DNA from: Bradyrhizobium diazoefficiens | GTDB lineage: Bacteria; Pseudomonadota; Alphaproteobacteria; Rhizobiales; Xanthobacteraceae | NCBI RefSeq assembly: GCF_016612535.1 | Contig: NZ_JAENXS010000001.1 | Coordinates: 2,505,501-2,569,500, forward strand | Direction of reading: 5' to 3' | DNA: 64,000 nt | Shown here: positions 37,257-51,080 of the stretch, piece by piece | How positions within the stretch are numbered: the stretch's first letter is position 1 | Layout: each line of letters starts with the position of its first letter | Notes under the pieces: generated by a model | What the model was told of the DNA's origin: nothing | The model's input: the letters and a program-made list of their open reading frames with translations, nothing else | The model's database searches: none | Position numbers and translations under genes: made by a program

Positions 37257-37601
37257 GGTGAAGTCCTCCCGGGGATCGATTTTGATTGTTTCTAATTAGA
37301 GACCGCCGCCCCCCGACTTTGCAACTAGGATTTTGGTCGCCCCGGTCATGGAAAGGTCATTGATCCGGCTGCAGATGTAATGATTTGAGCAGCCAGATCG
37401 TCATTTCCAGCGCTGCGGCGGCTGGGGGCGGGATGCCAGCCGTCATGCCCATCCGGCCGGCCTCTGGCCGATAGGGCCCCCCCCGGATTGCACGGGCATG
37501 CCGAATTTACCGCCCTTTATCCATTCTGCCCTAGTTTTGCTCATCCGGGTCTGGAGGCGGGACGTCTCCGGATCACGGCCGAATGGAAAATGGGGGTGGG
37601 A
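37257..37601. other. Divergent intergenic region between coxS and the first chemoreceptor
   Basis: 345 bases without a convincing gene. It contains a G/C palindrome-rich stretch around 37440-37500 (CATCCGGCCGGCCTCTGGCC and a run of eight C). AT-richer sequence at 37285-37345 (TTGATTGTTTCTAATTAGAG) is a plausible promoter for coxS. No operator with clear dyad symmetry was identified. Confidence 0.35.
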
Positions 37602-39641
37602 ATGTCCGGCCGTATCGCGTCGCCGTCGAAGCGTACAATATTTCCGACCCTCAGGTTCCGCGCCAAGATCATCCTCGGCTTTGCCGCGGTGCTGGTGATC
37701 TCTGCCGGCAGCATGGCCTTCGCCTATTTCGGTTTCGAGCGGGTCTCGTCCGGGGTCGGGTCATACCGCACCAGCGTGTCCGAGGCCGACCTCGCCCGTA
37801 ACATCGACCGCGAGCTGCTCGCCTACCGTTCTGCCGCCAAATATTTCGTCGTCACGGGCAAGGAGGACGACGCCAAGGCGGCGCTGGATGCCGAGACCGG
37901 CCTGAAGAACGCTATCGACCAGGCGGTCACGAGCGCCAAGAAGTCGGTGCGGCAGGAGAGCCTCGGCAAGCTCGCCAAGGAATTTTCCAATTTCTCCGCG
38001 ACGTTCGGAAAGGTCCTCCAGGCCAAGCGCGACAGCGCGCTGCTGGTGCAGAACCAGCTCATGCGGAATGCCAACCTCCTGAAGTACAAGCTCGACGACA
38101 TCGGCAACAACGCCTCCGATTCCGAGGCGCAGGCGATCGAGTTCGGCACCAAGCAGGTCAATACCCAATTCCAGACCGCGAGCGCGGCCGCGACCAATTT
38201 CGTCCTGACGTCCGACCAGGCGATCGCCGCCAGCGCACTGGCTCGGCTGAAATTCGTCGAGAACTCACTCGGGGCGGTCTATTCCATGGACGACAAGGTC
38301 ATCGCCGGCTTGAAGGACGCCAAGGGATTGCTTGGCGCCTATCGCGAAGCATTGGAGAAGCTGATCGCCAACGCCAAGTTGGTCGACGAGCTCGTCACCG
38401 AGATGACCGGTTCGGCAGGAGCAATCCTTCAGGGCGCCACCGCCATGAAGGCGGATCTGGTCGCCGAACAGCAGCGGCTGGATTCGGAATCCGCGGCCAC
38501 CATCGGGAAGACCGAGCAGCTGGTACTCATGCTGGCCGTCGGCGGCACGCTGCTCGGCGCTGTTCTCGCCTTTCTTCTCGGCACCGGCATCTCGCGGCCG
38601 ATGATCGCGATGTGCAAGGCGATGCGCGAGCTCGCATCGGGCAATTTCGACGTCGTGCTCCCGGGCCTCGGCCGCAAGGACGAGATCGGCGAGATGGCCG
38701 GCGCGGTCGAGGAGTTCAAGGTTCAGGCCGTGGCCAAGGCGGAGCGCGATGCTGCCGCCAGCGAAGCCCAGAACAAGGAGCAGGCGGCAAGCCGCCGCGG
38801 CGAGCTGATCCGCTTCGCCGATGATTTCGAGACCGCCGTCGGCGCCATCGTGTCGAACGTCTCGGCCTCCGCCGTGCAGCTCGAATCGTCGGCGTCCACG
38901 CTGACCCGCACCGCGGAGACCACGCAGACGCTGTCGAGCCAGGTCGCGGGCGTATCCGAGCAGGCATCGAGCAACATGCAGTCGGTGGCCACCGCCACAG
39001 AAGAGCTCTCGGCTTCGGTCGAGGAGATCGGCCGCCAGGTCCGCGACTCCACCCGGATCGCCGAGGCGGCCGTGGTGCAGGCCAAGGAAACCGACGGCCG
39101 TATCGGCAAGCTCTCGCATGCCGCCCAGCAGATCGGCGAGGTGGTCAAGCTGATCACCGCGATTGCCGAGCAGACCAACCTTCTCGCGCTGAACGCCACC
39201 ATCGAGGCGGCCCGCGCTGGCGAGGCCGGCCGCGGCTTTGCGGTGGTCGCGAGCGAAGTGAAGTCGCTGGCGAGCCAGACGGCCAAGGCGACGGATGAGA
39301 TTTCCTCGCACATCATGGGCATGCAGGGCGCGACCGCGGAATCGGTCGCCGCGATCAAGGAAATCGGTGCGACCATCGGTCAGATCTCCTCGATCTCGAC
39401 CTCGATCGCGAGCGCCGTCGAGCAGCAGGGCGCGGCGACGCAAGAGATCGCACGCAGCGTCCAGACGGTTGCCCAGGGCACCCAGGCCGCCGCCACCGAC
39501 ATCGGTCAGGTCAACCGTGGCGCCGCCGAGACCGGCTCGGCTTCGGAAGAAGTATTGAACTCGGCCAAGACGCTGTCGAGCGAAAGCACCCGGCTGCGCG
39601 CCGAACTCGATCGCTTCATGGCCAATATCCGGGCGGCGTAA
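37602..39641 (+). CDS. Methyl-accepting chemotaxis protein (tandem copy 1)
   Basis: The start is ATG 37602 ([20 protein letters not shown]), with a G-rich site upstream; an ATG at 37488 is rejected. The 679-residue receptor has TM1 ([20 protein letters not shown]), a periplasmic helical ligand domain of about 260 residues, TM2 ([20 protein letters not shown]), HAMP, and a cytoplasmic signalling domain with the conserved hairpin tip [20 protein letters not shown]. The signal is unknown. From about residue 328 to 549 its DNA appears identical to copy 2, while the sensor domains differ strongly; this points to gene conversion of the signalling half. Confidence 0.92.
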
Positions 39642-39787: not shown

Positions 39788-39930
39788 AACGCCCCGCGTC
39801 ACCTAACCGCAAGTTGCGGCGCCGCAAATTTACCGCAGCTTATCCTTTGCCATTTACCGTGCAGACGAGTCGGGGAGCGGGCTGCTTCCCGGCTGCGCCT
39901 GGTTTTCCGCGAATGGAATGGGGTGGGGGA

Positions 39931-41979
39931 ATGTCCGCCAAGTCGAAACCGAACAACTCGAAGCCGAACACCTCGAAGCTGCTCACCTTGCGTTTTCGTG
40001 CAAAAATCATCCTCGGCTTCGTGGCGGTGCTGGCCATCCTCGCCGTCAGCATGGCTTTCGCCTATTTCGGCTTCGAGCGGATCGCGGGCGCCGTCGCCGC
40101 CTATCGGATCAGCGTGTCGGAAGCTAACCTGGCGCGAACCGTCGATCGTGAGCTGATCGCCTATCAGGGGCTGGCACGGGCCTATACGCTGACCGGCGCC
40201 GCGGACGACGAGACGGCGGCCAAGACGGCCGAAGAGAATTTGAGAGCGGCGATCGCCAAGTCGATGTCCGCCACGACCGGTGCGGAGCGCCGCGAGCAGG
40301 TCGGCAAGCTCGAAACCGAGTTCCAGCGTTTCACGAAAGTCTTCGGCGAAATCATCACGCTGACCCGCCAGAACAACAAGATCGCAGCCGATGAGTTGAA
40401 CAGCGTCGGCAACAAGATCCGCTTCAAGTTCGACGATCTCGCCGATACCGCGGCGCTGGCGGGCCTGGACTCGGTCCAGACCACCGCCAAGGACATCACC
40501 TCGCAATATCTCGCGGTCTCCACCTCGGTCAGCGCCTTCGTCGCCAAGCCGGAGCCGAAGACCGCCGACGGCGTGATCGCACGCATCAAGTTCCTGGAGA
40601 CGCTGCTGGTCTCGATCTACGCCAATGACCAGAAGATCACCGACCGCGTCACCGAGATCGGTGGTCTGCTGAAGCAGTACCGCGCATCGTTTGCAAAGCT
40701 CTCCGACAACGTGAAAATCATCGTCAAGTTGAATGGCGAGATGACCAAGACGGCTGCGGCCATCCTCAAGCTCTCCGGCGAGTTGCGGTCCGACCTGTCG
40801 GCCGATCAGCAGCGCATCGAGGCGAGCGCCAATACGACGATCGCGGAAACCGAGCAGCTGATGTTGATGCTGGCGCTGGGCGGCCTCGCGGTCGGCGCCG
40901 TGCTCGCGCTGATGCTCGGTAACGGCATCTCGCGGCCGATGATCGCGATGTGCAAGGCGATGCGCGAGCTCGCATCGGGCAATTTCGACGTCGTGCTCCC
41001 GGGCCTCGGCCGCAAGGACGAGATCGGCGAGATGGCCGGCGCGGTCGAGGAGTTCAAGGTTCAGGCCGTGGCCAAGGCGGAGCGCGATGCTGCCGCCAGC
41101 GAAGCCCAGAACAAGGAGCAGGCGGCAAGCCGCCGCGGCGAGCTGATCCGCTTCGCCGATGATTTCGAGACCGCCGTCGGCGCCATCGTGTCGAACGTCT
41201 CGGCCTCCGCCGTGCAGCTCGAATCGTCGGCGTCCACGCTGACCCGCACCGCGGAGACCACGCAGACGCTGTCGAGCCAGGTCGCGGGCGTATCCGAGCA
41301 GGCATCGAGCAACATGCAGTCGGTGGCCACCGCCACAGAAGAGCTCTCGGCTTCGGTCGAGGAGATCGGCCGCCAGGTCCGCGACTCCACCCGGATCGCC
41401 GAGGCGGCCGTGGTGCAGGCCAAGGAAACCGACGGCCGTATCGGCAAGCTCTCGCATGCCGCCCAGCAGATCGGCGAGGTGGTCAAGCTGATCACCGCGA
41501 TTGCCGAGCAGACCAACCTTCTCGCGCTGAACGCCACCATCGAGGCGGCCCGCGCTGGCGAGGCCGGCCGCGGCTTTGCGGTGGTCGCAAGTGAAGTGAA
41601 GTCGCTGGCGAGCCAGACGGCCAAGGCGACGGATGAGATTTCCTCGCACATCATGGGAATGCAGGGCGCGACCGCGGAATCGGTCGCCGCGATCAAGGAA
41701 ATTGGCGCGACTATCGGCAAGATCTCGTCGATCTCGACTTCCATTGCCAGCGCGGTGGAAGAGCAGGGCGCGGCGACGCAAGAGATCGCGCGCAGCGTCC
41801 AGACGGTTGCCCAGGGCACCCAGGCCGCAGCCACCGACATCGGTCAGGTCAACCGTGGCGCAGCTGAGACCGGCTCGGCCTCGGAAGAAGTATTGAACTC
41901 GGCCAAGACGCTGTCGAGCGAAAGCACCCGGCTGCGCGCCGAACTCGATCGCTTCATGGCCAATATCCGGGCGGCGTAA
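39931..41979 (+). CDS. Methyl-accepting chemotaxis protein (tandem copy 2)
   Basis: The start is ATG 39931 ([20 protein letters not shown]). The 682-residue receptor has TM1 ([20 protein letters not shown]), a periplasmic helical domain (about 45-310) that is only distantly similar to that of copy 1, TM2 ([20 protein letters not shown]), HAMP, and the methyl-accepting signalling domain. Both receptors end FMANIRAA, without a CheR-binding pentapeptide. They probably sense different ligands but signal through the same Che complex. DNA from 40923 to 41588 appears identical to copy 1; scattered differences follow, and the last codons plus 24 bases of 3' flank are again identical. Confidence 0.92.
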
Positions 41980-42049: not shown

Positions 42050-42421
42050 TCACTCCTTCCCAAACGCCCGCTTCAGCTCCACCTTTGCTTTCTCCAGCCG
42101 CTCGCGCTGTGTCTTCGGCAACGTCTTGCCGGCACGGTTGATATAGAACGTCAGCATCGACAACGCTGAGCGATAGGCCCCGGTCTTGCGGCGCGCGCTG
42201 TGCTCGGCCGAGCGCTTCAGCGACGCTGCGATCCGCTTCGGGCTCGTGAGCGTGAACACGCCGCGCTTGAGGTCCAGTGCGTCGCTCTCCTTTGTCACAC
42301 GCTGCGACCAGCGCTTTGGCGAGGCGCGCTTTGTGCTCTTGCGTGAGGTGCTGCGCCTCGCGCTGGTCTTCTTGCGCGCTGCGGTTTTGCGCGAATGTGT
42401 CGTCTTTCTGACATGAGCCAT
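42050..42421 (-). CDS. Small basic DUF3175 protein under an EcfG-type promoter
   Basis: A 123-residue, very basic protein. The first 40 residues are a Lys/Arg/Ser/Thr-rich tail (RKTTHSRKTAARKKTSARRS). The folded part matches DUF3175: KRWSQRVTKESDALDLKRGV, SPKRIAASLKRSAEHSARRK, SALSMLTFYINRAGKTLP. The function of the family is unknown; the basic tail suggests nucleic-acid binding. AAGGAG precedes ATG 42421. A perfect GGAAC-N16-CGTT lies 26-50 bases upstream, divergent from the one serving the trehalose operon. Inferred role: general-stress protein, perhaps acting on DNA. Confidence 0.8.
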   Translation of the reverse strand: MAHVRKTTHSRKTAARKKTSARRSTSRKSTKRASPKRWSQRVTKESDALDLKRGVFTLTSPKRIAASLKRSAEHSARRKTGAYRSALSMLTFYINRAGKTLPKTQRERLEKAKVELKRAFGKE

Positions 42422-42446
42422 GCGTCAACTCCTTGGTTCCTTCGGA

Positions 42447-42471
42447 AACGGCCGGCATTCGCCGCCGTTCC
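42447..42471 (-). promoter_or_regulatory. Perfect EcfG-type promoter driving the DUF3175 gene
   Basis: On the minus strand, GGAAC (42471-42467), 16 bases, CGTT (42450-42447). This is an exact match to the alphaproteobacterial general-stress sigma factor consensus. The predicted transcript start is about 20 bases before the ATG. Confidence 0.75.
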
Positions 42472-42476
42472 TGGGG

Positions 42477-42501
42477 GGAACCTGCTGTTGCTGCAGACGT
42501 T
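42477..42501 (+). promoter_or_regulatory. Perfect EcfG-type promoter driving the MFS-otsB operon
   Basis: GGAAC (42477-42481), 16 bases, CGTT (42498-42501). It is back-to-back with the DUF3175 promoter, the two GGAAC elements being only five bases apart. It lies about 50 bases upstream of the transporter ATG. Confidence 0.75.
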
Positions 42502-42549
42502 GTCGCGGGTGGCAGGCGGAATGCCGCACCCCCATGACCCAGCAACGCG

Positions 42550-44034
42550 ATGGAATTGCAGCAGAGCCCAGCGCTGAATTATGCACCCACGATCTCGGCC
42601 GCCGCGACCGATCGGATCGTCGAGACCAGCATACCCGCGCGGCTCGACGCACTGCCGTGGAGCGGATTTCACACCCGCGTGGTGCTGGCGCTCGGCATCA
42701 CCTGGATTCTCGACGGGCTCGAGGTGACGCTGGCCGGCGCGCTCTCGGGCGCGCTGAAGCAGAGTCCGACGCTGCACTTCTCCAATCTCGATCTCGGCAT
42801 CGCCAACTCCGCCTATCTCGCCGGTGCCGTGCTCGGCGCGCTCGGTTTCGGCTGGCTCACTGATCGTATCGGCCGCAAAAAGCTGTTCTTCATCACGCTC
42901 GCGCTCTATCTCTCTGCAACGGCCGCGACCGCACTGTCGTGGGATATCGCAAGCTACGCGCTGTTTCGCTTTCTGACCGGCGCCGGCATCGGCGGCGAAT
43001 ACACTGCGATCAACTCGACCATTCAGGAACTGGTGCCGGCGCGCTATCGCGGTTGGACCGATCTGGTCATTAATGGAAGCTTCTGGATCGGCGCGGCCAT
43101 GGGCGCGGTGGCGGCCATCGTGCTGCTCGATCCTGCGGTGATCGGTCCCGATCTCGGCTGGCGTCTCGCTTATCTCATCGGTGCGACCATCGGCCTCGTC
43201 GTGCTCTTGATGCGGATGTGGATCCCAGAGAGCCCGCGCTGGCTGATGATCCACGGCCATCCGGAGCAGGCCCACAAGATTGTCGACGACATCGAGCGCT
43301 CGGTGATCGGACATGACCAGGAGGCAAGCGACGGACGTTTCGCCACGATGCGCCTGAAGATGCGCGATCACACCCCGATCAGCGAAGTCGTGCATACGCT
43401 GTTCTTCACCTATCGCCAGCGTGCGCTGGTCGGGCTCGCGCTGATGGCCGCGCAAGCCTTTTTCTACAACGCGATCTTCTTTACCTTCGCGCTGGTGCTG
43501 ACCGACTTCTACGGCATCAGCGCCGATCATGTCGGCTGGTACCTGCTCCCCTTCGCCGCCGGTAACTTCCTCGGTCCGCTGCTGCTGGGCCGTCTCTTCG
43601 ATACGCTCGGCCGCCGCGCCATGATCATGTTCACCTATGGCGTCTCGGGCCTGCTGCTGGCACTGTCGGGTTATCTGTTCTCGATCGGCGCGCTCAGTGC
43701 GCAAGGGCAAACCATTGCCTGGATGGTGATCTTCTTCTTTGCCTCGCCCGCCGCGAGCGCCGCCTATCTCACGGTGAGCGAGACCTTCCCGCTCGAAGTT
43801 CGCGCGCTGGCGATCGCGGTGTTCTATGCGGTCGGCACCGGCATCGGCGGCGTCGCGGGTCCCGCGCTGTTTGGGGCGCTGATCGACACGGGATCACGCA
43901 GCAGCGTGTTCGCCGGCTATTTGCTGGGCGCCTTCCTGATGATCGCGGCCGCGATCGTGGCCTGGCGCTATGCCGTCCCCGCGGAGCGCAAATCGCTCGA
44001 ACAAATCGCGCGGCCGCTCGCTTCTATGGAGTAG
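42550..44034 (+). CDS. MFS transporter of the trehalose locus
   Basis: A 494-residue major facilitator with twelve predicted helices. The loop 2-3 motif GFGWLTDRIGRKKLF and its repeat GRLFDTLGRRAMI in the second half are intact. PESPRWLMIHGHPEQA is the sugar-porter-type PESPR motif after helix 6. A sugar or organic acid is therefore a likely substrate. otsB follows after three bases, so the two are cotranscribed from the EcfG-type promoter; export or uptake of a sugar under stress is an inference. The ribosome site before ATG 42550 is weak. Confidence 0.88.
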   Translation: MELQQSPALNYAPTISAAATDRIVETSIPARLDALPWSGFHTRVVLALGITWILDGLEVTLAGALSGALKQSPTLHFSNLDLGIANSAYLAGAVLGALGFGWLTDRIGRKKLFFITLALYLSATAATALSWDIASYALFRFLTGAGIGGEYTAINSTIQELVPARYRGWTDLVINGSFWIGAAMGAVAAIVLLDPAVIGPDLGWRLAYLIGATIGLVVLLMRMWIPESPRWLMIHGHPEQAHKIVDDIERSVIGHDQEASDGRFATMRLKMRDHTPISEVVHTLFFTYRQRALVGLALMAAQAFFYNAIFFTFALVLTDFYGISADHVGWYLLPFAAGNFLGPLLLGRLFDTLGRRAMIMFTYGVSGLLLALSGYLFSIGALSAQGQTIAWMVIFFFASPAASAAYLTVSETFPLEVRALAIAVFYAVGTGIGGVAGPALFGALIDTGSRSSVFAGYLLGAFLMIAAAIVAWRYAVPAERKSLEQIARPLASME

Positions 44035-44037
44035 ACT

Positions 44038-44859
44038 ATGAAATCGGAACTTGCTGATCTGGATCAGAAGCGCGCCATGATCGATGACGAAATGCCCGAT
44101 TCGGTGCCGGTGCCGCATGCACTCGTGCCGCATCTCGATGAGACCGCGATCTTGCTCGACATCGACGGCACGCTGCTGGACCTGATGCCGACGCCGCGCG
44201 AGGTGTGGGTGCCGCCAGGCTTGTCGGAGACGCTCAACCGGTTGACGGAGCGCACGTCGGGCGCGCTGGCGATGGTCAGCGGACGTTCGCTCAACGACAT
44301 CGACTTGATCTTCGCGCCCGACGTGTTTCGTGCCGTCGCCGGTCATGGCGCGGAGATGCGGCTGTCGGTGGGCAATGAGGCAGATGACGTTCATGCGCCG
44401 CCGATGGACAAGGAGCTGAAACGGCGCTTGGCCGCGATTGCGAAGCTCAGTCCCGGCATTCTGCTCGAGGACAAGGGCTATTCGTTGGCACTGCACTATC
44501 GCCTCGCGCCGCATGCGGAGAAGGCGATCTTCGAGGCCGTGTCGCTGATCCGGGCCGATCTGCCCAATGCGCCGATCGAAGTGTTGCCCGGCAAGTTCGT
44601 TTGCGAGATCAAGCATTCCGGTTTCACCAAGGCGACCGGCGTGCGCGAGCTGATGAAGCACGAGCCATTCAGGGGGCGCCGACCGATCTTCATCGGCGAC
44701 GACGTCACCGATGAAACCGTGTTCGCGATCATGCCCGACATGAACGGTCTTTCTTTTTCGGTCGGTCGCCGCGCGATGGGCGTCAATGGTCACTTCGATG
44801 CGCCGGGCGATGTGCGCGCGTTCCTCGCGCGCCTGCTCGACGACACAAGGTTGGAATGA
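44038..44859 (+). CDS. otsB: Trehalose-6-phosphate phosphatase
   Basis: A 273-residue HAD phosphatase that removes phosphate from trehalose 6-phosphate. Motif I, AILLDIDGTLLDLMP, has the nucleophile Asp. Motif II is AMVSGRSLNDID, a Lys-containing motif is GKFVCEIKHSGFTKATGVRE, and motif IV is IFIGDDVTDETVF. GGAG sits close before ATG 44038. It is downstream of the MFS gene, and otsA follows after 237 bases. The first 35 residues are an N-terminal extension before the HAD core. Confidence 0.93.
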   Translation: MKSELADLDQKRAMIDDEMPDSVPVPHALVPHLDETAILLDIDGTLLDLMPTPREVWVPPGLSETLNRLTERTSGALAMVSGRSLNDIDLIFAPDVFRAVAGHGAEMRLSVGNEADDVHAPPMDKELKRRLAAIAKLSPGILLEDKGYSLALHYRLAPHAEKAIFEAVSLIRADLPNAPIEVLPGKFVCEIKHSGFTKATGVRELMKHEPFRGRRPIFIGDDVTDETVFAIMPDMNGLSFSVGRRAMGVNGHFDAPGDVRAFLARLLDDTRLE

Positions 44860-45038: not shown

Positions 45039-45063
45039 GGAACCATATTGATGAACGGCAGTT
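45039..45063 (+). promoter_or_regulatory. EcfG-like promoter upstream of otsA
   Basis: GGAAC (45039-45043), 16 bases, AGTT (45060-45063); equally GGAAC-N17-GTTA. One base off the CGTT consensus. It lies 34 bases before the otsA GTG, so the 5' leader would be very short. A CATTTC/GAAATG palindrome sits just upstream (45017-45031). The surrounding 237-base gap has no convincing gene; a 60-codon open frame at 44869-45051 lacks any family signature. Confidence 0.6.
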
Positions 45064-45096
45064 AAACGGGGTGGAATGAACAGGAGGGGACGACCT

Positions 45097-46560
45097 GTGA
45101 ACTTAGTCGTCGTTTCGAATCGAGTTGCGCGCGGTAAACCCAACGAGCCCATGACGGGTGGCCTCGCCGCGGCATTGCTTCCGGTCGTCGAGCATTCGGG
45201 CGCGATCTGGGTGGGATCGTCCGGCCGCGTGCGCGACGGCCATCAGAAGGAACCGTTCGCCGAGATCGAGGCGCTGGGCTCGGGCGCGATTGCGACGCTG
45301 GACCTGCCGGCCGCGCATTACGGCGGCTATTACGAGGGCTTTGCCAATTCGGCGCTGTGGCCGGCGCTGCATTCCCGCAGCGATCTGATCCGCGTCTCGC
45401 GCGACGACTATGTGAGCTATCGCGAGGTCAACGCGTTCATGGCGCGCGCCTTGATGCGATTTCGCAAACCAAAGACTGCGTTCTGGGTGCAGGATTATCA
45501 TTTTCTCGCGCTCGGCGCGGAGCTGCGCGATCTCGGCGTCGACGATCCGATCGGCTTCTTCCTGCATACGCCGTGGCCGGTCGCTGCGGTCATGCAGGGC
45601 GTACCCAATCATCGTGAACTGATCACGACGATGTTGGCTTATGACCTGCTCGGTTTCCAGACCGAGGAGGATTGCCAAAATTTTCTCGGCTATGCCGGCA
45701 CTGAACTCGGCCTCGTCGTCGATGACGGCATCGTGCTCTCGCAGCACGGACGCACACGTTGCGAGGTGTTTCCGATCGGCATCGACGCGGAGAAGTTCGC
45801 GGCTTACGCCGCGAAGTCGGCGTCGCATCCGGACGTCTCGCGCCTGCGCCGCAGCCTCAATGGCGAACGACTGGCGATCGGTGTCGACCGGCTCGACTAT
45901 TCCAAGGGGCTCGTCAACCGCATCAGCGCGTTCGACCGGCTCTGGACCGAGCAGCCGCAGTTTGCGCGCAGCATCTCGCTGCTGCAGATCGCCAATCCCT
46001 CGCGCGGCGCCATCGAGGCCTACGGCAATCTTCAGAACGAGGTCGCGCGCCTCGTCACCGACGTCAACGGCCGCCATGGCGAGGTCGACTGGACGCCGAT
46101 TCGCTATCTCAACAAGGGTTTTAGCCAGGCCGTGCTCGCGGGCCTCTATCGTACCGCGCAGGTCGGCGTGGTGACGCCGCTGCATGACGGCATGAACCTC
46201 GTCGCCAAGGAATATGTCGCAGCCCAAAACCCGGCCGATCCCGGCGTGCTGGTGCTGTCGAAATTCGCTGGTGCCGCCAACGAGCTCGACACCGCGCTGC
46301 TGGTCAATCCGCACGACATCGACGGCATGGCCCGTGCGATCGCAGTCGCGGCCGCGATGCCGCTGATTGAACGCAAGATGCGCTGGGACGCAATGATGAA
46401 GACACTGCGTGGCCACACCATCCAGCAATGGTCGTCGGATTTCGTCGCCGAGCTGGAGAAGCGCCGCATCGAGAAGGCGGCGGCCGCCCCGCTCGCAGCG
46501 CAGCCGCCGCAGGCGCTGCGCTGGCTCAAGTCGGCGATCTCGGGGGTGCGGTTGATCTAG
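45097..46560 (+). CDS. otsA: Trehalose-6-phosphate synthase
   Basis: Makes trehalose 6-phosphate from UDP-glucose and glucose 6-phosphate. A 487-residue GT20 enzyme. Landmarks are VVVSNRVARGKPNEPMTGGL, GFFLHTPWPVAAVM, GVDRLDYSKGLVNRISAFDR and LHDGMNLVAKEYVAAQ, the last with the donor-binding Asp/Glu. The start is GTG 45097, preceded by AGGAGGGG; an ATG at 45076 would place the ribosome site inside the gene. It is downstream of otsB with its own stress-type promoter. Trehalose protects rhizobia against desiccation and osmotic stress. Confidence 0.95.
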   Translation: MNLVVVSNRVARGKPNEPMTGGLAAALLPVVEHSGAIWVGSSGRVRDGHQKEPFAEIEALGSGAIATLDLPAAHYGGYYEGFANSALWPALHSRSDLIRVSRDDYVSYREVNAFMARALMRFRKPKTAFWVQDYHFLALGAELRDLGVDDPIGFFLHTPWPVAAVMQGVPNHRELITTMLAYDLLGFQTEEDCQNFLGYAGTELGLVVDDGIVLSQHGRTRCEVFPIGIDAEKFAAYAAKSASHPDVSRLRRSLNGERLAIGVDRLDYSKGLVNRISAFDRLWTEQPQFARSISLLQIANPSRGAIEAYGNLQNEVARLVTDVNGRHGEVDWTPIRYLNKGFSQAVLAGLYRTAQVGVVTPLHDGMNLVAKEYVAAQNPADPGVLVLSKFAGAANELDTALLVNPHDIDGMARAIAVAAAMPLIERKMRWDAMMKTLRGHTIQQWSSDFVAELEKRRIEKAAAAPLAAQPPQALRWLKSAISGVRLI

Positions 46561-47444: not shown

Positions 47445-50400
47445 CTACACGATCAAAAAGTTCGATGCGTGCAACTGGCTGATCGCGGTATCGACGAAAT
47501 CGACCGATCCCGCGCCAGGGGCGCTCCCCAGGGCAAGCAGAGTCCCGCCGTGCCCATCGCTCGTTAGCGCGCTCATGATGTCGGCGGCGGAGTGGTAATC
47601 GCCCACGCCGTTCGCGAGATCGATGACGCCGAGAGAGTCGTTACCAAATCCGGAGATCCTGTCGATCTGGTTGCTGGAGTTGATCGAGACGGTCAGACCC
47701 GTGCTGTGATCGCTGATGTCCACATGGGCCGCGCCGTTGATGATCGCCTGATTGCCGAACCCGGAAAAGTTGAACTGGTCTGATCCGCCATTGACCGTCA
47801 TGACGTCCTGGCCGATCTGGTTTGTCACATTTGCCTGGGATCCGTTGAGCTCCACGTGATTGGCGACGCCGCCAAGCGTGATCGTATCGTGGCCTGCGCC
47901 GGCAACGACGTTGTCCACTCCGCTGCCGGCCATGATCGTGTTTGTTCCCGAGCCGACGGTGATCTTGTTTCCCGTCCCGCTGAGATTCACGGTGCTGTTG
48001 CCGTCGCCCAGCGTGACACTGTTGGTGCCATCTCCGCCCGTGACGACATCGTCGCCATCGCCAAGCGTGACTGTATTGCCATATCCGGAGAGCGTCACGT
48101 GGCCGTTGCCGTTGCCAGCCGTGACCTGGCTCGCGCCGTCACCGGGGTGGACAACATCGTTGCCGTTGCCCAGCTTGATGATGTTGCCGTATCCGCCGGC
48201 GTCGATGGTATTGCTGCCATTGCCGAGCGCAATCGTCGTGGCGCCTGTCGACCCCGTCACCATGTTGTTGCCGTCGCCGCCGGTGACGTGGTTGACGATC
48301 CCCTGCAGATAGACCGTGCTGTCGCCGCTCGACACATCAACCGTACCGTATGTTCCGGCATAGATCGTGTCGTTGCCGCCATTGCCGTGGATCGTATTGA
48401 ACAGGCCATAGGCGTGGATGATGTCGTTGCCCGTGGTGCCCTCAATGGTCGCATAACCGGATGCCGGGCCGTCGATCGTCGTGGGAGCGGCTTGATGTGT
48501 GTCGATGACCGACGTGTTGGCGTCGCTGACGGTCAAGCCGTCGCTGCTTGTGTCGCTCAGGGTGAACGTAGTCGTTGCGCTGCCGTCTCCGTGCGGCGAA
48601 GCCACGAAGGTGAGGGCGTGCAGCTCGGCGGTCAGCTTGTCAGCGCTGGTCGCAGCCAATTCGTAGGTTCCGTCTCCAAGTGAGATCAATCCTGTCCCGG
48701 ACAGGATACCCGCCGCGCCTGCGAGCGTGATGATGAGACTATCCGTTGCCGCTGCATTTGGATCCGTGATCGTTACGGTCGCGAATGGATTGATCGCAGC
48801 TTCATTGCTGGTCGTTTGTCCCGACACGGCTCCAGCGATGGTCGGTCCCGCCGCAGCCGTCAGCAGAATGCCGCCGGAGCTATCCTTCGCGATGCTGAAA
48901 CTCGTGACCGACGTATCGGCCAAGTTGAAGGTCTCGCTGGCCGCGCCGTTGCTGACCGTGAGCGTCGAGCCGGATACCGTCGCCGTTGCGCCGCTTGCAT
49001 AGGACAGCCCGGAAAGATCGATTTGATCGCCGAGCGCAATGCCCTTGATCTGGCTTGCAAAGGTCGATGAGCCCGAAGCCAGCTCCTGCTCGATCTTGAG
49101 TGTGCCTTGGCCGGAGAAGGTGATCGCGTCGTCGGACATCGCGTCCACCTTGAGATCAAGCGTACCGCCGGCGATCGTGGTCGCGCCGGCAATGCCCCCC
49201 GCCTCGACGAATTCCGTGGCGCCATGATCGATCGTCGATACGTTCGCGGTGCCCTGATCGAGCACGTCAAGCGTGCCGCCGTTCAGAGTCGTAGAGGTGA
49301 TGATGCCGCCGTCCGAGACGGAGAGGCTTCCCGAATTGAGGATTGTTCCGCTCGCCGCGCTGGCGTCGGCCGCCGGTACGCTTGGGTCGCCCGTGGGGTC
49401 CGCAATGGATCCTGAAACCGTCATCACACCACCATCGATGGTGGCGTCCTTGGCGATTCCCGCCCCGGACAGATGCAATTGGCCGCCGTTGTCGACAACG
49501 GCTGAGTCGACTTCGCTTCTGATGACTTCGCCGTATCGGCCTCCGGGAGGATAATAGACCGTCTCTCCCGAAGCATTGATGACACCGCCCGATTCAACGG
49601 TGGTGTCGCTGGCTTTGCCCCCATCGGTGACATTCTGAACGCCGCCGGCATTGACGGTCGTTGACGTCGCGATGCCGGTATCGACGTCTTGCTCACCGCC
49701 ATTATTGACGGTGGTGTGATCTGCCTGCCCCGGACCTGGCTCATCGTGGATATAAAGGCCGTTTACCCGCTGAATGCCACCCATGTTGATCGTGGTATAG
49801 CTCGCGTTGGAGATCAGCCCGACATCTTGTTCGCCGCCATTGATGACGGTGTTGCTGGCAGAGCCTCCTGAGCCAAAGTCGCCTACGATCTGCTTGCCAC
49901 CCACCGATATCGTCGTGTTCGTGGCTGTGCCGCCGAACACCTTGAACTGCACGCCGTCAGACACGGTGAAGCCATCTTCCGTGTAGCCATACTCGATGAT
50001 GAACGTCGCGCCACTTTCGAAGGTCGTATTGGATAGGGTCGCGCCTGCTTCAGCGACGAGCGTTCCGCCTGCGGAGACAACACCATTATTGAGGATACCG
50101 CCGTCCAAAACGTAGAGCGCCGAACTGTTCGCGACATTGAATCCGCTTTCAATCGTGCCGCCGCCGATCTCGAGAGTGCTGCCGGCGTTGAATGTTGTCC
50201 CCGAAAAATCGGCGTTACCAAGCACAATCAAAGCGCCATATTGATTGACGGTTGTGTTGGTCGCCGTCGCGCCGGCGGACAGTTCCATCGTCGCATAACC
50301 ATTGATGGTCGTTCCGGTCGCTGTGCCGCCTGCATCGACGTTTAACGTGCCGAACTCTTGTAGGATTGTGCCGGATACCAATGCTCCGTTCGACACCGTC

Positions 50401-51080
50401 AGGGTTCCACCATTTTCGACGGTCGTGCCGGTCGCCGTGCTGGCGTCGACGGCCGGCTGGCCGGGGACGTTGGCGAACGGATCCGGTATCGATCCCGAGA
50501 CGGTCATGGTGCCGCCATGGACGATCGTGTTCACCGCAGTCCCGCCGCCGGTGATGTCGAATTCGCCCTGGTAGTTGATCGTTGCAGCGGTCGCGAGGCT
50601 TTGGATGACCGGCGGTGGAAACACGGGCGCCGTTTCCACGGTTTCACCCGAAACTTTGAGAACACCGCCGGAATTGACGATCGTGCCGCTGGCGCTGCCG
50701 CCATCCGTCACGTTCTGAAGGCCGCCGGAATTGACAGTCGTCGTCGTTGCGATGCCGGTGTCGATGTCCTGCTCGCCGCCGCTGTTGATCGTGGTGTGAT
50801 CAACCTCGCCGGGGTTCGGACCTTCGTGGACAAAATTGCCGGTTACACGCTGGACGCCACCCGAGTTGATGCTCGTGTAACTGGCGACGCCATTAAACAC
50901 GACGTCCTGTTCTCCGCCTTCGATGAGCGTGTCGGTTGCCGTGCTTGTCGTGGAAGATCCGCCGACCGTCTGCAAGCCGCCAATCTGGATTGCCGTGTTA
51001 TCGACGGAAGTGCCGCCGCTGACATCCATCGTGTCGCCGTTGTGGAGGGTAACGCCACTGGCGGGAGGAATAGCCGTCAT
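47445..51080 (-). CDS. Large AIDA-repeat surface protein with internal tandem duplication
   Basis: A 1211-residue protein from ATG 51080 (MTAIPPASGVTLHNGDTMDV) with GGAG upstream. Residues about 25-640 consist of AIDA-type repeats of about 19 residues (VNSGGLQNVTDGGSASGTIV). One block of about 200 residues occurs twice (compare VDHTTINSGGEQDIDTGIAT and ADHTTVNNGGEQDVDTGIAT). A cadherin-like segment follows, then short Gly/Asn/Asp repeats (TLGDGDDVVTGGDGTNSVTL) resembling degenerate RTX repeats. No signal peptide and no autotransporter beta-barrel are present. Inferred: adhesin or biofilm protein exported by type I secretion; no transporter nearby. Confidence 0.78.
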   Translation of the reverse strand: MTAIPPASGVTLHNGDTMDVSGGTSVDNTAIQIGGLQTVGGSSTTSTATDTLIEGGEQDVVFNGVASYTSINSGGVQRVTGNFVHEGPNPGEVDHTTINSGGEQDIDTGIATTTTVNSGGLQNVTDGGSASGTIVNSGGVLKVSGETVETAPVFPPPVIQSLATAATINYQGEFDITGGGTAVNTIVHGGTMTVSGSIPDPFANVPGQPAVDASTATGTTVENGGTLTVSNGALVSGTILQEFGTLNVDAGGTATGTTINGYATMELSAGATATNTTVNQYGALIVLGNADFSGTTFNAGSTLEIGGGTIESGFNVANSSALYVLDGGILNNGVVSAGGTLVAEAGATLSNTTFESGATFIIEYGYTEDGFTVSDGVQFKVFGGTATNTTISVGGKQIVGDFGSGGSASNTVINGGEQDVGLISNASYTTINMGGIQRVNGLYIHDEPGPGQADHTTVNNGGEQDVDTGIATSTTVNAGGVQNVTDGGKASDTTVESGGVINASGETVYYPPGGRYGEVIRSEVDSAVVDNGGQLHLSGAGIAKDATIDGGVMTVSGSIADPTGDPSVPAADASAASGTILNSGSLSVSDGGIITSTTLNGGTLDVLDQGTANVSTIDHGATEFVEAGGIAGATTIAGGTLDLKVDAMSDDAITFSGQGTLKIEQELASGSSTFASQIKGIALGDQIDLSGLSYASGATATVSGSTLTVSNGAASETFNLADTSVTSFSIAKDSSGGILLTAAAGPTIAGAVSGQTTSNEAAINPFATVTITDPNAAATDSLIITLAGAAGILSGTGLISLGDGTYELAATSADKLTAELHALTFVASPHGDGSATTTFTLSDTSSDGLTVSDANTSVIDTHQAAPTTIDGPASGYATIEGTTGNDIIHAYGLFNTIHGNGGNDTIYAGTYGTVDVSSGDSTVYLQGIVNHVTGGDGNNMVTGSTGATTIALGNGSNTIDAGGYGNIIKLGNGNDVVHPGDGASQVTAGNGNGHVTLSGYGNTVTLGDGDDVVTGGDGTNSVTLGDGNSTVNLSGTGNKITVGSGTNTIMAGSGVDNVVAGAGHDTITLGGVANHVELNGSQANVTNQIGQDVMTVNGGSDQFNFSGFGNQAIINGAAHVDISDHSTGLTVSINSSNQIDRISGFGNDSLGVIDLANGVGDYHSAADIMSALTSDGHGGTLLALGSAPGAGSVDFVDTAISQLHASNFLIV

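Follow-up and report, generated by a model that had tools for sequence, protein, structure and literature searches.

In alphaproteobacteria, the general stress response is governed by a partner switch in which PhyR releases the sigma factor sigma-EcfG from NepR. Bacterial genes can also be transcribed divergently from one region, by bidirectional promoters that share symmetric elements. As stated in the portion of the published account available to us, otsCB and trehalose synthesis are under sigma-EcfG control in Bradyrhizobium diazoefficiens, the major facilitator superfamily (MFS) gene otsC lies upstream of otsB in one operon, and otsA is located beside them (PMC8092242). Two further results given there bear on symbiosis: strong expression of otsBA harms nitrogen fixation, which indicates that the dosage of trehalose genes matters, and, even after its trehalose synthesis has been restored, an ecfG mutant is outcompeted for soybean nodules by a restored ots mutant (PMC8092242), so that further EcfG targets matter as well. 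The sigma-EcfG motif of Sphingomonas melonis is given as GGAAC-N17-20-GTT in the part consulted of PMC6599016. The main text of a paper on transcription start sites (PMC4842269) held, in the portion available, no match for trehalose, otsA or GGAAC.

The locus described here belongs to a window of 64,000 nucleotides (the whole stretch of DNA that was analyzed) from B. diazoefficiens, and it agrees in gene order and in predicted EcfG control with the published otsCB-otsA locus; as far as that account was available, it mentions neither DUF3175 nor any divergent gene, and it does not deal with the spacing of promoters (PMC8092242). The boxes and spacing of the window motifs are likewise the same as those of the S. 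melonis promoters (PMC6599016, seen in part). Unlike that consensus, however, the window carries two promoters placed back-to-back, with -35 boxes 5 bp apart, and it differs from symmetric bidirectional promoters in that the leftward and the rightward promoter do not share a -35 or a -10. Our main conclusion, which we hold with considerable confidence on comparative sequence evidence, is that this would be a two-way EcfG control region serving DUF3175 and otsCB, with a third promoter for otsA.

The DUF3175 gene (42050 to 42421, minus strand) encodes a protein of 123 amino acids with a pI of 11.9, which matches PF11373 over the entire profile (1-86 of 86) with 134.7 bits for a gathering cut-off of 27. 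By composition it consists of a tail of about 37 residues, rich in K, R, S and T, and of a conserved core of 86 residues. A Shine-Dalgarno-like AAGGAG (42429-42434) can be read directly off the sequence. The intergenic region between DUF3175 and otsC (42422-42549) holds an EcfG-type promoter of DUF3175 on the minus strand (42447 to 42471, GGAACGGCGGCGAATGCCGGCCGTT; -10 CGTT at 42447-42450, -35 GGAAC at 42467-42471), a gap of 5 bp (42472 to 42476) and an EcfG-type promoter of otsCB on the plus strand (42477 to 42501, GGAACCTGCTGTTGCTGCAGACGTT; -35 GGAAC at 42477-42481, -10 CGTT at 42498-42501). The preliminary description had reported an exact GGAAC-N16-CGTT on both strands, separated by 5 bp, one copy being directed at DUF3175 and the other at MFS-otsB, and all of this holds at 42447-42471 (minus) and 42477-42501 (plus). 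Its notion of a shared -35 region does not, as there are two separate -35 elements 5 bp apart.

Downstream of the rightward promoter, a predicted and conserved leader (42502 to 42549, plus strand) precedes otsC (42550 to 44034, plus strand), an MFS transporter gene (Sugar_tr PF00083, 147 bits) which occupies the position that otsC, the trehalose transporter gene, has in B. diazoefficiens in the part seen of PMC8092242. It is followed on the same strand by otsB (44038 to 44859), encoding trehalose-6-phosphate phosphatase (PF02358; TIGR00685 at 123.8 bits, above the cut-off), by an EcfG-type promoter of otsA (45039 to 45063, plus strand, GGAAC-N16-AGTT) and by otsA itself (45076 to 46560, plus strand), encoding trehalose-6-phosphate synthase (PF00982, 354.5 bits; TIGR02400 at 554.8 bits, slightly below the cut-off of 564.85). 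Translation of otsA may also begin at GTG 45097, which follows AGGAGGGG and is no less likely a start than 45076. The MFS, otsB and otsA families thus stand side by side in the window, as in the otsCBA trehalose module of B. diazoefficiens. Elsewhere in the window, two tandem ORFs resemble methyl-accepting chemotaxis proteins (37488-39641 and 39814-41979), and their C-terminal halves look almost identical when the translations are compared by eye; an ORF of 1,211 amino acids on the minus strand (47445-51080) has many repeated motifs and looks adhesin-like, again by eye.

A single strict motif is common by chance and is therefore not special on its own. GGAAC-N16-CGTT has an expectation of 0.40 per window, and two copies were reached in 7 of 100 shuffled windows. 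The looser GGAAC-N17-GTT occurs at three sites in the 64-kb window, every one of them within the DUF3175/otsCBA module, against a mean of 0.98 in shuffled windows, 9 of 100 of which reached three. Genome-wide (7.99 Mb), GGAAC-N16/17-CGTT was found in 139 copies, versus 201 for a reversed control pattern. The strict divergent pair (gap of 0 to 30 bp) is found at one place in the genome, for about 0.02 expected by arithmetic from the motif counts, and the control pattern gives none. Of 242 genomes of the genus, a strict divergent pair was found in 123; many of the places listed resemble the DUF3175/otsC locus and others are plainly elsewhere. The genome from which the window comes encodes nepR (58.1 bits) and phyR with an adjoining ECF-type sigma factor gene (ecfG).

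Conservation was assessed in 80 named loci, which are the best 80 of 421 confirmed matches and hence a sample of close relatives; the nearest named relatives of the DUF3175 protein are from Bradyrhizobium. DUF3175 is accompanied by otsC, otsB and otsA in 79 of the 80. The DUF3175-side motif (GGAAC-N16/17-NGTT) is present in 77 (strict CGTT in 49, another NGTT in 28) and absent from three (L125, L130, L138), while the otsC-side motif is present in 78 (76 strict, 2 relaxed); in the other two, otsC either lies beyond the 800 nt searched (L118) or is lacking (L135). Both motifs occur together in 75 of the 80 loci and are both strict in 45, so the pair proposed in the preliminary description is indeed conserved among close relatives. 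That description had added a further motif before otsA, which is present in the window and conserved in 79 of 79 relatives as GGAAC-N16/17-[AT]GTT (AGTT in 55, TGTT in 24, CGTT in none); it reads AGTT in the window and cannot be counted among the perfect CGTT forms.

Because conservation of a motif in loci picked by that motif is largely built in by construction, we set aside a comparison of 44 loci with a 4-bp gap (identity of 0.978 in the boxes versus 0.562 in the spacers) and used a clade of 51 loci of the otsC tree, which was picked without regard to the motif and includes L125. In this clade, the commonest base accounts on average for a share of 0.99 at the DUF3175-side -35 and of 0.93 at the -10 of that side, of 1.0 at either otsC-side box, and of 0.59 and 0.77 within the spacers. 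Both flanking leaders are conserved too (0.90 and 0.89), so that the promoter boxes are not alone in their conservation. The distance between the two -35 elements falls into three classes among the 75 loci with both motifs: 2 to 4 bp in 50, 13 to 18 bp in 17 and 89 to 301 bp in 8. It is exactly 4 bp in 45 of the 75, with variable gap bases. Just two changes of class occur on the otsC tree, with the 13 to 18 bp and 89 to 301 bp gaps in other clades, and gap size therefore says little; for the same reason, we do not take gaps of 4 and 14 bp, which differ by about one helical turn, as evidence that the two -35 boxes are in phase. The DUF3175-side motif is kept in all eight loci with gaps of 89 to 301 bp, and it is kept in L135 although no otsCBA genes lie inside the 4-kb flanks of that locus.

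Natural losses of DUF3175 offer a second view of the pair. Among 35 relatives of the same genus, 25 have a full DUF3175 match, one a remnant (G005) and nine none, which shows that the gene is dispensable. Eight loci without an intact DUF3175 could be read (G005, G026, G017, G032, G004, G035, G012 and G021), and all eight have the otsC-side motif. The full DUF3175-side motif (N16/17) is found in two, G017 and G021, both of which retain a stub from the beginning of DUF3175; in G021 (L191), the DUF3175 core is deleted while the start codon and both promoters are intact, which looks like a recent loss. G005 and G032 have a variant with N15, G026 has GGAAC alone, and in G004, G035 and G012 a search of 300 nt found no opposite GGAAC. 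Altogether an opposite GGAAC is present in five of the eight genomes, at the usual 4-bp spacing in four of these, and four of the eight have no partner motif even at N15-18. Compared with the 77 of 80 relatives, two of eight at N16/17 gives a Fisher p of 4e-6, and four of eight at N15-18 a p of 9e-4 against the relatives, both statistics ignoring phylogeny. Since an opposite GGAAC or an N15 variant can persist without the gene, part of the DUF3175-side sequence outlives it, and since the otsC motif is kept in all eight losses, four of them partnerless, it does not need its partner. As judged from these loci, the two promoters are separable, and the predicted DUF3175-side promoter decays after gene loss, unevenly.

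The region next to the otsC-side promoter has features of its own. The otsC leader is conserved from directly after the -10 (leaders of L068-L147). In the window it holds one hairpin, GTGGCA (42509-42514) with TGCCGC (42522-42527) on the plus strand, whose arms were placed by comparison with the aligned relatives; sister clades have two conserved hairpins, of which the window keeps the first and lacks the second. In many loci the second is followed by T runs and by CATTGG immediately before otsC. Control of otsCB by the RNA of this leader is possible. As for an attenuator, the terminator scan of L138 was empty and covariation was modest, and we leave it as a lead; in the leaders of the other group, no double changes were seen in the hairpins. 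Rfam gave one tRNA and nothing else in the window at gathering cut-off, and below threshold two plant miRNA matches in four loci, both away from the otsC leader. A pattern for the second hairpin matched four of eight genomes, at one place each, near the otsC locus, and a covariance model matched 1 of 119 genomes of the family, with 37 candidates scored in each. In addition, among the 28 loci that do not have the short gap, 7 carry a palindrome, CCGCANTGCGG, directly before the otsC -35; these loci fall in the range L128-L147 and mostly have 14-bp gaps. Similar sequences are also found in some genomes that lost DUF3175, and the palindrome is a possible operator.

We know of no function for DUF3175 (PF11373), and a search of the papers available to us found none on it. 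The family is large (at least 7,994 proteins at E up to 0.001) and scattered: it was found in 18 of 385 genomes of a class draw, 16 of them above cut-off, and in 22 of 299 genomes of a phylum draw, own genome included. Outside the genus, 22 genes of the same class were parsed and searched within 200 nt of a conserved Trp codon; GGAAC-N16/17-NGTT was present in sense orientation in 12 and missing from 10, as against 24 positives in 1,508 control windows of the parsed loci (overlapping, both strands). The 12 motif-bearing genes are spread over 6 of 12 families, with 7 in a single genus. Non-alphaproteobacterial DUF3175 genes had the motif in none of four cases. In four loci from other families (L060, L061, L064 and L065), the motif precedes DUF3175 and no ots gene was matched in the flanks. 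L065 has strict EcfG-type motifs on both strands upstream of DUF3175, back-to-back and about 40 bp apart. The neighbors of eight DUF3175 genes outside the genus include GST, uracil-DNA glycosylase, DUF4142, DUF2161, cupin and one OtsC-like MFS genes; these eight neighborhoods showed no recurrent partner, some neighbors having no Pfam match.

The protein itself gives few clues. The core has a net charge of about +14, and the structure model is a small basic helical bundle; none of the 50 matches listed in a fold search with the model stands out, and none is labelled histone. Sequence searches of the PDB gave no match in one case and one chance-level match, and PHROGs weak matches alone (E of 0.024 and 0.051). 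The preliminary description spoke of a histone-like tail, and a basic tail of about 37 residues is present here; it is not a constant of the family, being 12 residues or shorter in 28 of 120 distant homologues. A role in nucleoid or DNA protection, also suggested there, is a guess. One paper, of which we had a part, names blr0325 among predicted type III secreted proteins; this locus tag may or may not be that of DUF3175.

Could the otsC-side motif be the only real EcfG promoter, the opposite GGAAC being a part of otsC control or a by-product of symmetry, and DUF3175 being transcribed from another promoter? The less conserved -10 on the DUF3175 side (CGTT in 49 of 80 loci) and the persistence of the opposite GGAAC in five of the eight genomes without an intact gene speak for it. 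We nevertheless think it quite unlikely, given that, in the clade chosen without the motif, the -35 and GTT on the DUF3175 side hold steady next to a drifting spacer, that the motif stays before DUF3175 when the gap widens to 89 to 301 bp and when otsCBA is missing from the flanks (L135), that it is complete in just two of the eight losses, and that it recurs in the four loci of other families without an ots match. It is still harder to believe that the pair merely reflects chance and shared descent, with neither motif in use. Strict motifs are no commoner in the genome than the reversed control and most loci come from one genus, as such a view would have it; against this, the boxes are nearly invariant next to drifting spacers, the EcfG dependence of otsCB is published for a close relative (PMC8092242, seen in part), and 12 of 22 genes outside the genus repeat the motif before DUF3175.

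A different question is whether the close spacing is a working switch, in which the promoters are mutually exclusive and transcription of DUF3175 tunes the output of otsCB. The recurrence of a 4-bp gap, in 45 of 75 loci, despite variable gap bases would fit, as would the importance of dosage shown by the damage that strong otsBA expression does to nitrogen fixation (PMC8092242, in the part available). Wider gaps nonetheless exist in other clades, the two changes of gap class on the otsC tree leave size uninformative, and the otsC motif is without a partner in four of the eight losses, and we regard a switch as unlikely.

The two-way control region that we favor would work as follows. Region 42422-42549 would be a compact element through which the general stress response of alphaproteobacteria controls genes on either side. 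Under stress, PhyR would free sigma-EcfG from NepR, and the EcfG holoenzyme would use two complete promoters to transcribe DUF3175 to the left and otsC-otsB to the right, and the third to transcribe otsA. By arithmetic from the -35 spacing, the predicted start sites of the two promoters are about 70 bp apart. Usual RNA polymerase footprints would overlap at such spacing, so that occupancy is probably by one polymerase at a time; this is a matter of geometry and no evidence of regulation. DUF3175 would thus be transcribed by EcfG at this locus and act beside trehalose as a separate stress protein, which probably binds polyanions, with a core charge of about +14. A bolder proposal, to which we give a small chance, makes DUF3175 a dedicated protein of the alphaproteobacterial general stress response that, under osmotic stress or desiccation, coats a nucleic acid or some other polyanion. 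In Bradyrhizobium, the back-to-back arrangement of its promoter with that of otsCB would then direct a single EcfG polymerase at any moment to either the supply of a chemical chaperone or the protein protectant, and DUF3175 would account for part of the published competitiveness that EcfG confers independently of trehalose.

The trehalose half of this picture, EcfG control of otsCB, was already published; what is new is the recurring stress link of DUF3175, which is probably a recurrent and direct target of sigma-EcfG. A family of at least several thousand proteins thereby gains a testable place in the alphaproteobacterial general stress response, and the genus provides natural DUF3175 losses as controls.
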